Source of the DNA: an uncultured Pelagibacteraceae bacterium
GTDB lineage: Bacteria; Pseudomonadota; Alphaproteobacteria; Pelagibacterales; Pelagibacteraceae
Reading direction: 5' to 3'
Assembly: GCA_902596375.1 (NCBI GenBank)
Contig: CACJTU010000002.1
Coordinates: forward strand, 62,001-126,000
DNA: 64,000 nt
The position numbers and the translations under genes are program-made. Each line of letters begins with the position of its first letter. Positions within the stretch are counted from its first letter, which is position 1. Shown here piece after piece: positions 55,172-61,602 of this stretch. The notes beneath the pieces were generated by a model that worked only from the letters and a program-made list of their open reading frames with translations, made no database searches and had not been told where the DNA came from.

Positions 55172-55414
55172 TTATTCTAAATCATTAATGTCATTTTCAC
55201 TTATTTCATCTATAGGTTTATGAATTTTCCAGTTTTTAGTAGATCCATCTATTGATCTAGCAGTTATTACTGTCTCGGTTGGGGGACAATCAGGTTCATG
55301 ACAATTTAATTCTGCAATGCTTAAAATTGTACTTTCTGGTATTTCATATTTTTTTATAAAATAATTTTTTAAATTCTGAATTGTTTCTAAATTTGGTTTT
55401 TTTTTATTAAACAT
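55172..55414 (-). CDS. small conserved-looking protein with CxxxxCPPxET motif
   Basis: An 80-residue protein of unknown function. The middle contains LSIAELNCHEPDCPPTETVI, a compact Cys-His-Glu-x-x-Cys motif that could bind a metal. It is followed by a strand-rich DGSTKNWKIHKPIDEIS end. The track starts at 55456, but the ATG at 55414 (MFNKKKPNLET) avoids a long overlap with the WD40 gene and gives a more natural N-terminus. It is the last gene of the znuA-COG0523-WD40 run, 4 bases after the WD40 stop, so a role in zinc handling is inferred from position only. Confidence 0.65.
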   Translation of the reverse strand: MFNKKKPNLETIQNLKNYFIKKYEIPESTILSIAELNCHEPDCPPTETVITARSIDGSTKNWKIHKPIDEISENDINDLE

Positions 55415-55418
55415 TTTT

Positions 55419-56453
55419 TTATTGATCCCAAATTGAAGTCCACAAAGTATTTCCACTCATGTCACCAATAAATATACTTGATTTATCGTCAGTCATTGCG
55501 ATTGCACTAACTTCAGAACCTGTGAAACTTCTAATTATTATAGTGTTATTCTCATTTTCAATTTGAGATAAAAAAACAGAACCATCACTCAAACCAGCAA
55601 AAATTGCTTTTTCATCAGGGAATGGTTCTATAAATGTAACTTGTTTATTTCCTATATAAGGAAGACAGATAGGTTCACGACCCATTGGTCCTTCACCATC
55701 AAAAGGCCAACATATTGCATCTATTGCTCCTGATGTTGCCAAGTAACTTGTATCATCAATGAAAGCAAAACTTTTAACTTTTGAGCCATATCCTGACATA
55801 GCAAAATCAAGTTTATCTTTTAAACGCCAGCAACGAAGTACATTTTCTTGCATGGAAGTTACCAAGTATTTACCATCTGGGCTAAAACTCACTTTATTGT
55901 GAGAACCTTTCCAATTTAATTTTGTTGATTTCCACTTATTGCTGTAATCTTTTTTCCAAACTGTAACACCTCCGTATCTAGATACAGCCAACCGTCTTCC
56001 TTTAGCATCAAATGCCAAACCTCCAATTGTACTATCATGATTTAAAGATTTTGGTTCTTTTTTATTTTTATCCCAATAATAAACTACCTTACCCGAAGAA
56101 CAAACTAGGTTTCCATTATGTGCTGCAACATGATCTACCCATCGTGAACCAAAGTTTGTAACTTCATTTATTTCTCCGTTAAGTGAAATTTTTAAAAAAT
56201 AACCATCATCACCACCAGTTAAAATATTATCACCATCCTTTGCCATACAAAGAATCACACCTTTATGAGCCTTTAAAGTTTTGTGTTTTTCTCCAGAACT
56301 GAAAATTCTTATAGTACCATCGCCAAAACCAGCAGCTATATAATTACCAATTGAAACTGCACAGGTTACTGGAACTCCAATTTCTAACTGAATTCCTCTT
56401 TGCTCAAATTTAGTTTTATCTAACTGTGGAAATTGATTTAAATCAGTTGTCAT
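55419..56453 (-). CDS. WD40-repeat beta-propeller protein
   Basis: A 344-residue protein of repeated WD40-like blades. Examples are GFGDGTIRIFSSGEKHKTLKAHKG, TGGDDGYFLKISLNG, SFSPDGKYLVTSMQENVLRCW, FAGLSDGSVFLSQIEN and MTDDKSSIFIGDMSGNTLW (pieces shown). About six to seven blades fit the length. There is no signal peptide or membrane segment, so it is probably cytoplasmic. The ATG overlaps the COG0523 GTPase stop (ATGA), which points to joint production. It may be a scaffold for the GTPase, but nothing in the sequence gives an enzymatic function. Confidence 0.85.
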   Translation of the reverse strand: MTTDLNQFPQLDKTKFEQRGIQLEIGVPVTCAVSIGNYIAAGFGDGTIRIFSSGEKHKTLKAHKGVILCMAKDGDNILTGGDDGYFLKISLNGEINEVTNFGSRWVDHVAAHNGNLVCSSGKVVYYWDKNKKEPKSLNHDSTIGGLAFDAKGRRLAVSRYGGVTVWKKDYSNKWKSTKLNWKGSHNKVSFSPDGKYLVTSMQENVLRCWRLKDKLDFAMSGYGSKVKSFAFIDDTSYLATSGAIDAICWPFDGEGPMGREPICLPYIGNKQVTFIEPFPDEKAIFAGLSDGSVFLSQIENENNTIIIRSFTGSEVSAIAMTDDKSSIFIGDMSGNTLWTSIWDQ

Positions 56454-57421
56454 TCTGATTTACAGGCTTCAAATCCTTCTTTTAAATTCATGGTTTCTAG
56501 GTTACGTCCAATAAACACTAGTCTAGAGCTACGTTCTTTATCGTCTGGCCATTTTCCCATTGGAGAAGCGTCCATCAACATATGAACACCTTGAAACACA
56601 TATCGATCATTTTCACCTTTGAAATCAAGTATTCCTTTAGTTCTCATAATATCTTGACCTTTTGTCTGCAAAAGTTTTCCAAACCAGTTTTGAAATTTTT
56701 CCATGTCTAAAGGTTTGTCAGATACGAATGATAAACTTGTAACATCATCATCATGCTCATGATCATGATCTGACTCAAGAAAATCTGGTTCTACCTCTAA
56801 AATACGTTTTAAACTAAATGCATCAAGATTAAGAATTTCCTTTAGTGGTGCTCCACATTTTGTTGTTTTAATAATTTTAGCAAAAGGATTAATTTTACGA
56901 ATTCTCTTTGTTACTACGTCTATATTCTCATCTTTCACAAGATCTATTTTGTTTAGTAATATTACATCACCAAAAGCAATTTGTTCCTCAGCTTCGTGAT
57001 GATCTTCAATTTGTGAGCTTAGATGAACTGCATCAGCAACTGTAACAATTGCATCTAGCTTTGTTTTATTTGCCACATCTTGATCTACAAAGAAGGTTTG
57101 AGCTACAGGAGCTGGATCTGCTAAACCTGTTGTTTCAACTATAATTGCATCAAGTTTATCAGCTCGCTTCATTAACCCACTAAGTATTCTAATTAGGTCA
57201 CCTCTGACTGTGCAGCATATACAGCCATTGTTCATTTCAAAAACTTCCTCGTCAGCATCCACCACAAGGTCATTATCAATACCTTGTTCACCAAATTCAT
57301 TTACAATAACGGCGTACTTTTGGCCGTGCTGTTCTGTTAGAATTCTATTAAGAAGTGTTGTTTTTCCAGCACCAAGAAAACCTGTTAAAACAGTAACAGG
57401 TACTTGGTGCTTGTTTTCCAT
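56450..57421 (-). CDS. COG0523 (CobW/ZagA-type) metallochaperone GTPase
   Basis: A G3E-family GTPase predicted to deliver zinc to client proteins. The N-terminal Walker A is TGFLGAGKTTLLNRIL. The metal-binding CxCC motif lies in NNGCICCTVRGDLI, followed by VETTGLADPAPV and the specificity motif LNKIDLV. A His/Asp-rich loop (ESDHDHEHDDDV, about residue 215) precedes the CobW C-terminal domain (FVGRNLE-type ending). 323 residues. It starts 9 bases after znuA and overlaps the WD40 gene, so Zur control of the whole left arm is likely. Confidence 0.92.
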   Translation of the reverse strand: MENKHQVPVTVLTGFLGAGKTTLLNRILTEQHGQKYAVIVNEFGEQGIDNDLVVDADEEVFEMNNGCICCTVRGDLIRILSGLMKRADKLDAIIVETTGLADPAPVAQTFFVDQDVANKTKLDAIVTVADAVHLSSQIEDHHEAEEQIAFGDVILLNKIDLVKDENIDVVTKRIRKINPFAKIIKTTKCGAPLKEILNLDAFSLKRILEVEPDFLESDHDHEHDDDVTSLSFVSDKPLDMEKFQNWFGKLLQTKGQDIMRTKGILDFKGENDRYVFQGVHMLMDASPMGKWPDDKERSSRLVFIGRNLETMNLKEGFEACKSE

Positions 57422-57430
57422 TAATAACGA

Positions 57431-58558
57431 TTAGCAACCTTTAAAGGATGCAGACATGTTTCTTATTAAATCAAAGTATAATGATTTTCCTGGATTTAAA
57501 GTAGCTCCCAAAGGATCCACTACTCCAGTTTTAATATTCATGTCTTTTGCAACCGCTTTAATGATATCAGGGTTAAATTGAGGTTCAGAAAATACACAAG
57601 CAACTTTATCGTGTTCAATTATCTCTCTGATTTCTGCTAGTTGTTCTGCTCCAGGCATTACATCTGTATTAACAGTAAAAGCACCTAATATATTCACATT
57701 AAATCTTTCTTCAAAATATTGGTAAGCGTCATGGAATACAATAGAAGAAACACTGCTACTTAAATCAGTCATCACATCGATTGTAAGTTTATCGATTTCT
57801 TTTAAGGCTTTAGATAAATTACTTTTGTACTTAGCTTCATTCTTAGGATCATTTTCAATTAAATGCTCAACCATCTCATTTAATATTACTTTTGCATTAA
57901 TTGGATCTAACCAAATGTGTGGATCAAATTCTCCATGTGCATGTCCTTCATGATCGTCATGCCCATGATCATCGTGATCATCTTCTTTTTTACCGTGATC
58001 ATCATGATCGTCATGTCCATGATCGTCTTCCTTTTTACCATGATCATCGTGGTCGTGATCATCTTCTTTTTTACCGTGATCATCGTGATCATGATCGTCT
58101 TCCTTTTTACCATGATCATCGTGGTCGTGATCATCTTCTTTTTTACCATGATCATCGTGGTCGTCATGTCCGTGATCGTCATGATCATCAAAAATGTTTC
58201 TTTCTCTAAACTTTAATACCTGTAATCCTTTGATTTCCATTAATTCAATTTTTTCAGCTTTTTTAGCGATTGAATTTAATGGTTTTTCCAAAAAATTTTC
58301 TAAATCTTCTCCAACCCAGAATATCAGGTCAGCATTTTGAAGCATTTTTGCATGTGAAGGTTTCATTGCAAATCCATGAGGAGACGCATAACCATCTACA
58401 ATTAAATCTGGTTTAGCAACACCATCCATTAAGTAACTGGCTAATGAATGAATTGGTTTAATAGAAGCAACTACTTTGATTTCAGCGTTTACTGATGTAA
58501 AGAATGTTAAAAATGATAGTATAGATAGTATAAAAGGTATTTTTTTTAGAGTTTTCAT
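57431..58558 (-). CDS. znuA: zinc ABC transporter, substrate-binding protein ZnuA
   Basis: ZnuA is the periplasmic zinc receptor. It has a signal peptide (IPFILSILSFLTFFTSVNA). The SPHGFAMKPSHAKML segment carries a zinc-ligand His. A very long His/Asp-rich loop (about residues 122-212) follows, and after it GEFDPHIWLDPINAKVI with another ligand His, IVFHDAYQYFEERF, CVFSEPQFNPDII and GVVDPLGATL. The loop contains five GKKEDDH-type repeats and makes the protein 375 residues, longer than most ZnuA. It is divergent from znuC across a double Zur-type operator. Confidence 0.95.
   Translation of the reverse strand: MKTLKKIPFILSILSFLTFFTSVNAEIKVVASIKPIHSLASYLMDGVAKPDLIVDGYASPHGFAMKPSHAKMLQNADLIFWVGEDLENFLEKPLNSIAKKAEKIELMEIKGLQVLKFRERNIFDDHDDHGHDDHDDHGKKEDDHDHDDHGKKEDDHDHDDHGKKEDDHDHDDHGKKEDDHGHDDHDDHGKKEDDHDDHGHDDHEGHAHGEFDPHIWLDPINAKVILNEMVEHLIENDPKNEAKYKSNLSKALKEIDKLTIDVMTDLSSSVSSIVFHDAYQYFEERFNVNILGAFTVNTDVMPGAEQLAEIREIIEHDKVACVFSEPQFNPDIIKAVAKDMNIKTGVVDPLGATLNPGKSLYFDLIRNMSASFKGC
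57955..58190 (-). repeat. in-frame tandem repeats encoding the ZnuA His/Asp loop
   Basis: Within znuA the coding unit GKKEDDHDHDDH (12 codons, 36 bases) recurs, with variants at the ends. At DNA level a 72-base super-repeat is exact for 57 bases: 58019-58075 equals 58091-58147. All unit lengths are multiples of three, so gain or loss of units by slippage would keep the frame. Antisense ORFs in the track here are products of the repeat. Confidence 0.9.
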
Positions 58559-58577: not shown

Positions 58578-58610
58578 TGTTATAATATAACATTATGTAA
58601 TAATATAACA
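58578..58610. promoter_or_regulatory. double Zur-type operator between znuA and znuC
   Basis: TGTTATAATATAACA (58578-58592) is a perfect odd-centred palindrome. TGTAATAATATAACA (58596-58610) is the same with one mismatch. Both match the core of the E. coli-type Zur box (TGTTATANTATAACA). They lie 18 bases apart, centre to centre, in the 71-base gap between the divergent genes and overlap TATAAT-like -10 sequences. With zur itself in the rightward arm, this would be an autoregulatory switch for the whole locus. Confidence 0.8.
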
Positions 58611-58629
58611 TTTAGAAGTCAAGCAATAT

Positions 58630-59376
58630 ATGAGTACTGAAAACAACATATTAGTAAAATTACATAATGCTGGTTTTAAGCAGAATAATAAGTGGTTAGT
58701 TGAAGGAGTTTCTTTAACAGTGGAGAAGGGTAAAATTGTTACACTTATTGGTCCAAATGGTTCAGGCAAAAGCACTACTGCAAAAATTGCTTTAGGTATT
58801 TATAAAAATATTGAGGGCAATGTTGAAAAATACACTAACAAAGTTGGATATGTTCCTCAAAAAATTTCAATAGATTGGACCCTACCTTTAAGAGTTTGTG
58901 ATTTTATGTTACTTACAGAAAGCATTAGTGAAAAAGATATAGATGAGGCTTTATCATTAACTGGTGTAATTCATTTAAAAAATAAGAATTTAGGAAATCT
59001 TTCAGGAGGAGAGTTTCAAAGAGTTTTAATAGCACGAGCAATTTCAAAAAAACCTGAATTACTTGTACTAGATGAACCTGTACAAGGAGTAGATTATACA
59101 GGTGAAATAGCATTATATGAATTAATCAAAAATATTTCAGATACTTTGAGTTGTGGTATTTTATTAATTTCACATGATTTGCATACAGTTATGACAGCAA
59201 CTGATCATGTGGTTTGTTTAAATGGCCACGTATGTTGTTCTGGATCACCAATGGATGTTGCAAAAAATAATGAGTACAAAGCTCTATTTGGAGAAAAAGC
59301 TTCCCAAATTTTAACAGTGTACGAACATAAACATGACCATGTTCATTCTGAAGAGGGCGAAATAAAAAAAAATTGA
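58630..59376 (+). CDS. znuC: zinc ABC transporter, ATP-binding protein ZnuC
   Basis: ZnuC powers zinc import. Walker A is LIGPNGSGKSTTAKIALGI (about residue 40), the Q-loop is VGYVPQKISIDWTLPL, and the signature is LGNLSGGEFQRVLIARAI. Walker B is LLVLDEPVQGVDY and the switch His is in LISHDLHTVM. The C-terminus is His-rich (EHKHDHVHSEEGE), common in ZnuC. 248 residues. znuB starts one base after the stop. Confidence 0.95.
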   Translation: MSTENNILVKLHNAGFKQNNKWLVEGVSLTVEKGKIVTLIGPNGSGKSTTAKIALGIYKNIEGNVEKYTNKVGYVPQKISIDWTLPLRVCDFMLLTESISEKDIDEALSLTGVIHLKNKNLGNLSGGEFQRVLIARAISKKPELLVLDEPVQGVDYTGEIALYELIKNISDTLSCGILLISHDLHTVMTATDHVVCLNGHVCCSGSPMDVAKNNEYKALFGEKASQILTVYEHKHDHVHSEEGEIKKN

Positions 59377-59377
59377 T

Positions 59378-60181
59378 ATGTTTGATGATTTTTTTGTAAG
59401 AGCATTATTTGCAGGAATAGGAATTGCATTTGTAACAGGACCATTAGGTTGTTTTGTAGTATGGAGAAGATTATCTTATTTTGGTGACACATTAGCTCAT
59501 TCAGCACTTCTTGGTGTAACAATGGCATATACTTTAGATTTAAATATAGCTATTTCAGTGTTTTTAATTTCTTCAGTAATCGCATTAATCCTAATTCAAC
59601 TACAGAAAAAAACTAATTTACCTGGGGATGCTTTGCTTGGTCTTTTAGCTCATTCTTCATTAGCTGTCGGATTAGTAGTAATAGGTTTTTTAACCTTTAT
59701 TCGTTTTGATATTATGGGACTTTTATTTGGTGATATATTAGCTGTAACAACTGATGATTTATTGATTATTTGGACTGGAGGAGCTTTAATTTTATTAGTT
59801 CTTAAATTGATTTGGAAACCGTTGTTTGCATCTACAGTTAATTATGAATTAGCAGAAGCAGAAGGATTAAACCCTGATAGAGCAAAAGCTATTTTTACAA
59901 TTCTTATGGCTGCTGTAATAGCAATATCAATTAAAATGGTAGGTTTATTACTAATTACAGGTATGCTAATTATACCAGCGGCTATGGCTAGAAATATCTC
60001 AGATAGTCCTCAAAAAATGGTAATATTTTCAATTATTGGTGGATTACTGTCTGTTGTATTAGGTTTATATTCCTCGTTAGAATTTAATACATCTTCAGGA
60101 CCATCTATAATAGCTGCCTCGTTAGTATTATTCATACTGTCTTTATTTAAAATAAAACAATCGATTAAATTGAAAAACTGA
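59378..60181 (+). CDS. znuB: zinc ABC transporter, permease ZnuB
   Basis: Membrane subunit of the zinc importer, 267 residues with about seven to eight helices. Conserved blocks are ALFAGIGIAFVTGPLGCFVVWRR, FGDTLAHSALLGVTMAY, DALLGLLAHSSLAVGLV, and the cytoplasmic contact region AEAEGLNPDRAKAIF. VGLLLITGMLIIPAAMARNIS follows. It is preceded by znuC and followed 24 bases later by zur. Confidence 0.95.
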   Translation: MFDDFFVRALFAGIGIAFVTGPLGCFVVWRRLSYFGDTLAHSALLGVTMAYTLDLNIAISVFLISSVIALILIQLQKKTNLPGDALLGLLAHSSLAVGLVVIGFLTFIRFDIMGLLFGDILAVTTDDLLIIWTGGALILLVLKLIWKPLFASTVNYELAEAEGLNPDRAKAIFTILMAAVIAISIKMVGLLLITGMLIIPAAMARNISDSPQKMVIFSIIGGLLSVVLGLYSSLEFNTSSGPSIIAASLVLFILSLFKIKQSIKLKN

Positions 60182-60205
60182 TAACATATTGATAAGAATT
60201 TAAAG

Positions 60206-60604
60206 ATGCAAAAAGAACATAACCTTTCCAAAAATCAAAAAATAATTTTTGACTTAATTGATAAATCTGGTGGACCAATGAAAGCTTATTCAATCCTTTT
60301 TAATGTTCAAAAAAAAGGAATTAAAGCGCCACTACAAGTTTACAGAGCATTAGATAAATTAGTTGAAATAGGAAAAATTCATAAGATTGAAAGCAGAAAT
60401 GCTTTTATAGCTTGTCAAAATTCAAGCTGTCAGATTTCAAAAGCAACAGCTTTTTCAATTTGTGAAAGTTGTGAAAATGTATCTGAGATAAGTAATTCAA
60501 AACTATCAAAATATTTATCTAATTTTTCAGATGACTCTGGAATGAAATATAGCAAATATAATTTAGAATTTTTTGGTTTATGTAAAAAATGTAAATCAAA
60601 ATAA
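60206..60604 (+). CDS. zur: zinc uptake regulator Zur (Fur family)
   Basis: Zur is the zinc-loaded repressor of zinc uptake. The N-terminal winged helix (LSKNQKIIFDLIDKSGGPMKAY to VYRALDKLVEIGKIHKI) contacts DNA. The C-terminal part is Cys-rich, with CQNSSCQ, CESCENV and a final CKKCK, which would form structural and regulatory zinc sites. 132 residues, short but complete. Location in the znuCB arm together with the double palindrome upstream supports Zur over Fur. The next gene's ATG overlaps its stop. Confidence 0.92.
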   Translation: MQKEHNLSKNQKIIFDLIDKSGGPMKAYSILFNVQKKGIKAPLQVYRALDKLVEIGKIHKIESRNAFIACQNSSCQISKATAFSICESCENVSEISNSKLSKYLSNFSDDSGMKYSKYNLEFFGLCKKCKSK

Positions 60605-61602
60605 TGAGCACAGTTTCATTAACTTTAGACGAAATATTTGAACTAGCTAAAAAAACTCTTTTGGCAAATGGTTGTGATGATGAAACAGCATCAATTTTGT
60701 CAGACTTGATCAGAAATGCTGAAAGAGATGGTTCTGTATCACACGGTTTATTCAGATTACCAGCATACGTTACTGGTCTTAAAGGTGGAAAGATAAATGG
60801 AAAAGGGAAACCTGAAGTAAAAAAAATATCTCCATCTGTAATAAAAGTTGAGGGTAATAATTGTTTAGCGCCTGTTGTATTAAATAAAGGTTTGCCTGAA
60901 TTAGCAAAAGCTGCAAAAGAAAATGGTGTAGCTGTGTTAGCAATAAATAATTCACATCATATGGCTGCTATGTGGCCTGAAACAGAGAAATTAGCAGAGG
61001 AAGGTTTAGTTGCATTTGCTTGTACATCTTACAAGCCTGCTGTAGCACCTGCTGGCGCAATAAAACCTTTATTTGGAACAAACCCAATTTCATTTGCTTG
61101 GCCACGTCCTGGTAAAACACCGGTTGTTTATGATATGGCAACAGCTTCAATGGCAATGGGTGAAGTTCAAGTTGCTAAAAGAGAAGGGCACAAAGTTCCA
61201 CTTGGAACTGGTTTAACTAAAGATGGTAAAGAAACAACTGATCCAGGGGAAATTGCAGATGGTGGAGTTTTATTACCATTTGGTGGTTACAAAGGATCTG
61301 CAATTGCAATGATGGTAGAATTAATGGCAGGAGCTTTGGTTGGAGATAATTTTAGTTTTGAAACTGCAGCCAAAGATAATAATGATGGTGGTCCTCCAAG
61401 TGGCGGTGAATTCATACTAGCTATTAACCCAGATAAAACTTCAGGTACTAATTGGCAAAAACATGCTGAGGAATTTTTTGAAAAAATGAAATCAATGGGC
61501 GAAGTAAGATTACCTGGAGAAAGACGTCATAAGAATAGAATGGATACTGGTCCAAGAAATATTAACGAAGAATTAGTAAATAAAATTAAATCTTTAAGCT
61601 AA
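60604..61602 (+). CDS. Ldh2-family reductase, DpkA-like (pyrroline-2-carboxylate / piperideine-2-carboxylate reductase)
   Basis: A member of the malate/lactate dehydrogenase-like Ldh2 fold, which uses NAD(P)H. The segments NNSHHMAAMWPETEKLAEEGLV and LFGTNPISFAWPR, then LLPFGGYKGSAIAMMVELMAG, resemble Pseudomonas DpkA, which reduces cyclic imines to proline or pipecolate. Substrate is therefore inferred as delta1-pyrroline-2-carboxylate or delta1-piperideine-2-carboxylate. 332 residues. It overlaps zur by one base (TAATG), so it may be read from the Zur-controlled promoter. It is convergent with xth (9-base overlap). Confidence 0.82.
   Translation: MSTVSLTLDEIFELAKKTLLANGCDDETASILSDLIRNAERDGSVSHGLFRLPAYVTGLKGGKINGKGKPEVKKISPSVIKVEGNNCLAPVVLNKGLPELAKAAKENGVAVLAINNSHHMAAMWPETEKLAEEGLVAFACTSYKPAVAPAGAIKPLFGTNPISFAWPRPGKTPVVYDMATASMAMGEVQVAKREGHKVPLGTGLTKDGKETTDPGEIADGGVLLPFGGYKGSAIAMMVELMAGALVGDNFSFETAAKDNNDGGPPSGGEFILAINPDKTSGTNWQKHAEEFFEKMKSMGEVRLPGERRHKNRMDTGPRNINEELVNKIKSLS

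Follow-up and report, generated by a model that had tools for sequence, protein, structure and literature searches.

COG0523 GTPases are leading candidates for intracellular zinc delivery, from bacteria to humans. ZNG1, a eukaryotic COG0523 protein, is reported to pass zinc to the methionine aminopeptidase MetAP1 in a GTP-dependent manner. The sections of Haas et al. 2009 (PMC2770081) that deal with COG0523 subfamily 5 report that its prokaryotic members have WD40-repeat, creatinase and znuABC genes as clustered neighbours, that Zur sites precede several of these members, and that the subfamily takes in most eukaryotic COG0523 proteins, human included. The link between a GTPase of this kind, a WD40 protein and zinc was therefore already published, which contradicts the earlier note on this DNA, where the WD40 partner was not recognised as characterised. 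In P. denitrificans, the operon pden1338-1344 has Zur motifs and consists of a COG0523 gene followed by a pair of hypothetical genes and those of a Ni/dipeptide-type ABC transporter. Zinc limitation raises its expression about 8-16 fold, and about 8-13 fold is the figure for the COG0523 gene with the two hypothetical proteins (PMC5387054). Two further systems bear on the comparison, namely the zinc-linked COG0523 protein ZigA and AztD, a periplasmic beta-propeller zinc chaperone.

We analysed a stretch of 64,000 nucleotides from an uncultured Pelagibacteraceae bacterium (hereafter the window), in which three genes follow znuA on the minus strand. The znuA gene (57431..58558), encoding the periplasmic zinc-binding protein and predicted to be the first gene of the transcript, matched Pfam ZnuA with 188.8 bits and NCBIfam ZnuA (PRK09545) with 258.9 bits, slightly below the cut-off of 268. 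Behind it lie a COG0523 (G3E/CobW) GTPase gene (56450..57421), a gene for a WD40 beta-propeller predicted to be cytoplasmic (55419..56453) and a gene for an 80-residue protein with the C-x4-C motif CHEPDCPPTET (55172..55414). The junctions are a 9-base gap between znuA and the GTPase gene, a 4-base overlap between the GTPase and WD40 genes, and a 4-base gap before the small gene, in agreement with the spacing of -4 to 9 bases given in the earlier note. Divergent from this operon, on the plus strand (58630-60604), are znuC, the zinc importer ATPase (58630..59376; NCBIfam ZnuC was the best match, below its cut-off), znuB, the permease (59378..60181; Pfam ABC-3, 230.2 bits), and a probable zur, encoding the Fur-family zinc repressor (60206..60604). 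Most SAR11 loci, and genome G204 as well, have an ORF homologous to the latter next to znuCB, and it aligns with genes annotated as Fur-family on plasmids of rhizobia. A search of the region for terminator-like sites found one against 1.5 expected, which is chance level. Within znuA, a His/Asp/Lys-rich repeat tract (window 57900-58210) with units like DDHDHDDHGKKE matches its relatives to a varying degree among SAR11 loci. Downstream of the small gene, SAR11 loci L013-L092 differ, carrying a PhyH-type dioxygenase gene, a dehydrogenase gene homologous to window 60604-61602, or other DNA; since the gene after the trio is not constant among SAR11 loci, the operon end is a rearrangement site.

Regulation was examined with the motif GTWAYRWWATAACAT, derived from the P. 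denitrificans Zur sites in Table 7 of PMC5387054 and thus a consensus of that species. Two exact matches were found in the window, against a chance expectation of 0.00, and both lie in the divergent znuA/znuC promoter on the plus strand: box 1 (GTTATAATATAACAT) at 58579..58593 and box 2 (GTAATAATATAACAT) at 58597..58611, the latter at a place that is boxed in most SAR11 loci. No further exact match to GTWAYRWWATAACAT was present in the 1,157,850-base draft genome. An exact or one-mismatch box was found at the znuA/znuC promoter of most SAR11 loci for which promoter sequence exists. Moreover, where the trio stands apart from znuA, a box lies directly before the GTPase gene, exact at L105, L117 and L119 and with one mismatch at L056. 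Operons of the GTPase and small genes lacking WD40 are also boxed (exact at L150; one mismatch at L148, L149 and L164), and pairs of WD40 and small genes without a GTPase showed no Zur box in the available flanking DNA. As a control, 520,877 mononucleotide-shuffled bases gave no match with zero or one mismatch and 26 with two mismatches, so two-mismatch sites alone were not taken as evidence. By its promoter operators, the locus is a probable member of the Zur regulon. The tight spacing and the two exact boxes in the shared promoter support the proposal of the earlier note that the genes probably form one Zur-controlled transcript, and we consider a single transcript and Zur control of the genes behind znuA very likely from the sequence arrangement.

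The GTPase matched Pfam cobW with 202.7 bits (cut-off 20.7) and CobW_C with 91.6 bits (cut-off 22). It carries the CxCC metal motif as GCICC, together with a DHDHEHDDD loop, and its closest solved structure was E. coli YjiA (E 1.7e-55). Two more specific identities were rejected, that of the CobW cobalt chaperone (TIGR02475, 195.9 bits against a cut-off of 332.1) and that of ZigA (NCBIfam NF038288, 194.9 bits against 600). With a WD40 gene, znuABC and a Zur site around the GTPase, the locus fits the neighbourhood of subfamily 5, and it shares these neighbours with the clusters described for that subfamily (PMC2770081). However, the small Cys-x4-Cys protein present in the window is not mentioned in the sections of that paper on subfamily 5. 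ZNG1, which is tied to subfamily 5 through the same sections, resembles the window GTPase in belonging to the GTPase family with the CxCC motif, but neither a WD40 nor a small partner, both present in the window locus, is mentioned for it in the portion of its literature available. The pden1338-1344 operon (PMC5387054) is similar to the window locus in its Zur motifs and in its COG0523 gene, behind which lie the hypothetical genes pden1339 and pden1340.

The protein encoded at 55419-56453 matched Pfam WD40 with 63.8 bits (cut-off 27). AlphaFold2 gave a confident model with a propeller fold (mean pLDDT 86.7, pTM 0.85), and Foldseek searches with this model matched propellers in the PDB with E values down to 1e-15, among them ODA16/Tako8; the closest matches include eight-bladed propellers. 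No signal peptide was visible on inspection by eye. The likeness to AztD lies in the occurrence of a beta-propeller in a zinc locus. In contrast to the window protein, AztD is periplasmic, and we detected no sequence relation between the two: homology to AztD was rejected at an hhalign probability of 0.3% and a BLASTP E of 3.1. At the rhizobial loci L121, L123 and L126, aztD stands directly behind a GTPase gene whose product is 60-61% identical to that of the window, in the place where SAR11 has WD40. A GTPase gene lies immediately in front of the WD40 gene in 22 of the 30 best WD40-family loci from Pseudomonadota, and GTPase-WD40 pairs without the small gene also occur among WD40-family loci.

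For the small gene, we chose the ATG at 55414 as the start because the 80-residue form is conserved in relatives, rather than the alternative 94-residue form that begins at a GTG (55456) and overlaps the WD40 gene. The ORF was intact in all 80 SAR11 loci retrieved, identical copies exist in uncultured Pelagibacteraceae, which places the window in a SAR11 genome, and nine pairwise comparisons with the window copy gave dN/dS values of about 0.04 to 0.28, indicating that the gene is under purifying selection and that the ORF is not a chance one. The protein had no match in Pfam, NCBIfam, PHROGs or the PDB, and none of 17 diverse members was matched by any curated family. AlphaFold2 predicted a helix-strand-strand-strand-helix arrangement (mean pLDDT 81, pTM 0.64), a provisional model since its alignment took in SAR11 sequences only. 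In it, Cys38 and Cys43 fall within the loop joining strands one and two. Foldseek returned no PDB match at E 0.001 for this model; the best query TM-score among the matches listed was 0.49, with E about 0.2. We found no published account of the protein in the open-access literature. The earlier note had not recognised the 80-residue CHEPDCPPTET partner as characterised, and both the family searches and the literature agree with this; the protein looks like a seemingly undescribed component of a known kind of module.

We then compared the distribution of the three genes across the window's own genome and 60 relatives. All three occurred in the identical 11 of these 61 genomes, whereas znuC was found in 45; many of the genomes are incomplete drafts, so absence from any one of them proves little. 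The order GTPase-WD40-small was kept in 80 of the 80 SAR11 loci retrieved with the small gene. Because the three genes are adjacent, the trio counts as one linked unit and not as three independent observations. These results show that the trio is separable from the zinc importer.

Profile searches for the small protein covered 386 Alphaproteobacteria and 398 Pseudomonadota, with neighbourhoods counted by hand. At E below 1e-10, we identified 28 distinct copies beyond SAR11, none of them outside Alphaproteobacteria among the 398 Pseudomonadota searched. Directly behind a COG0523 GTPase gene, this WD40 gene or both stood 23 of the 28: nine copies were in GTPase-WD40-small order, nine in GTPase-small order without WD40, and five in WD40-small order without a nearby GTPase, the last five having neither neighbour. 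Outside SAR11 the trio is thus not an obligate set, and GTPase-small, GTPase-WD40 and WD40-small pairs all occur. The neighbourhoods of the WD40 and small families together indicate that GTPase-WD40 is the wider core and that some lineages have the small gene added to it. The small gene attaches to other COG0523 GTPases too. Its partners fall into at least three groups: GTPases 58-90% identical to that of the window, the ZigA class, and a rhizobial type about 32% identical. At L149, the partner is a bona fide ZigA (617.1 against the NCBI cut-off of 600) with the small gene directly behind it; the window GTPase falls far below the same cut-off. On rhizobial plasmids, GTPase-small pairs lie beside azt and Fur-family genes; a Phyllobacterium plasmid carries the order GTPase-small-SBP-permease-permease-ATPase, which resembles pden1338-1344, and a cyanobacterial plasmid copy of the small gene lies near SmtB and cation ATPase genes, without a GTPase. 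The nine copies that follow a GTPase gene without WD40 make the COG0523 GTPase the most general partner of the small protein. No gene fusions joining the three proteins were found among the loci examined, and the extended open frames that surround the small gene where the genome is GC-rich were rejected as fusions. Altogether, the co-occurrence with COG0523 and znu genes on which the earlier note had staked its proposal was recovered: within SAR11 the three genes are present together or not at all, and across Alphaproteobacteria the trio is found again next to zinc importers and Zur boxes.

On balance, we consider it probable that the locus encodes a zinc-allocation module under Zur control, with the small protein serving the GTPase as a zinc-binding adaptor or donor. 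Through the Zur-repressed operon, zinc import would be supplemented by this module in the cytoplasm. A drop in zinc would switch on znuA together with the trio, and the GTPase would load a metal, presumably zinc, on its CxCC site and hand it, in a GTP-dependent manner, to one or more priority zinc enzymes. Delivery to priority enzymes under zinc shortage is suggested by the analogy with ZNG1 and its methionine aminopeptidase. The WD40 propeller would most likely be a scaffold or client-docking partner, to judge from its predicted fold and its position, and the small protein would most likely act on the GTPase through its Cys-x4-Cys loop between two strands; we infer that the propeller and the small protein contact their partners physically and have separate roles. 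Speaking against this reading are the incomplete sets outside SAR11, the five distant copies of the small gene with neither partner nearby, the loss of both cysteines in the boxed copy at L159, and the lack of a Zur box at WD40-small pairs in the available DNA. Were the reading correct, part of the SAR11 population would have zinc allocation as a layer added to import.

The role of the small protein is where the main rival has to be weighed. The small protein may carry no zinc and instead act as a regulator of the GTPase, such as an exchange or activating factor, its cysteines forming a structural zinc site or a disulfide. Its pairing with at least three kinds of COG0523 GTPase (the subfamily-5 type, ZigA and the third, rhizobial type), which makes the GTPase its common partner rather than one client, would fit such a regulator, and so would the copy at L159 (about 1439-1500), which lacks the cysteines altogether and stands directly behind an exact Zur-type box with neither GTPase nor WD40 nearby. 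L159 is, however, the exception: 27 of the 28 distant copies keep both cysteines in a sequence that is otherwise variable at most positions, and the C-terminal tail of several SAR11 copies is rich in His (HNHSH, HNHKH). Both features fit metal handling while still being compatible with a structural site. The conserved cysteine pair suggests metal or thiol chemistry, and we regard the regulator as unlikely. The role of adaptor or donor is preferred since the GTPase is the common denominator of the small protein's neighbourhoods and the cysteine pair is conserved. Going further, it is possible, though somewhat short of probable, that the 80-residue protein represents a hitherto undescribed family whose members are partners dedicated to COG0523 zinc GTPases, including ZigA, and would load zinc onto the GTPase or couple GTP hydrolysis to zinc release. 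A small partner recurring with several COG0523 kinds would give a direct handle on GTPase loading and client choice.

The WD40 and small proteins could also be maturation helpers for one specific zinc client instead of a general scaffold and donor. The WD40-small pairs that occur without a GTPase agree with this explanation, as do the creatinase genes next to subfamily 5 in the sections cited above (Haas et al. 2009, PMC2770081) and a creatininase-family gene adjoining a GTPase-WD40 pair in S. meliloti. However, no client gene is constant across the loci and the flanks vary even within SAR11, and we consider client-specific helpers quite improbable. A purely positional association, with unrelated genes retained in the zinc operon of a streamlined genome, is more improbable still: SAR11 genomes are small and gene-dense, and some loci have WD40 and GTPase but no small gene, yet the trio or pairs drawn from it turn up repeatedly in distinct alphaproteobacterial families and on plasmids, next to different importers (znu, azt) and with Zur boxes of their own.

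Two minor observations concern the limits of the small-protein family. Members in Mesorhizobium and Phyllobacterium (L163 4992-5279; NZ_CP017943.1 147283-147501) are annotated as 'nitrate reductase', most likely a misannotation. Weak class-level matches at L137-L142 (E 1e-4 to 1e-6), which represent a Cys-less relative or a look-alike, were rejected as members and left out of the counts. These proteins are missing both motif cysteines and end in D-x-x-CC or D-x-D-CC; their genes adjoin a medium-chain alcohol-dehydrogenase-type gene, and close to them lies a COG0523 GTPase gene whose product is 56-69% identical over the part available.
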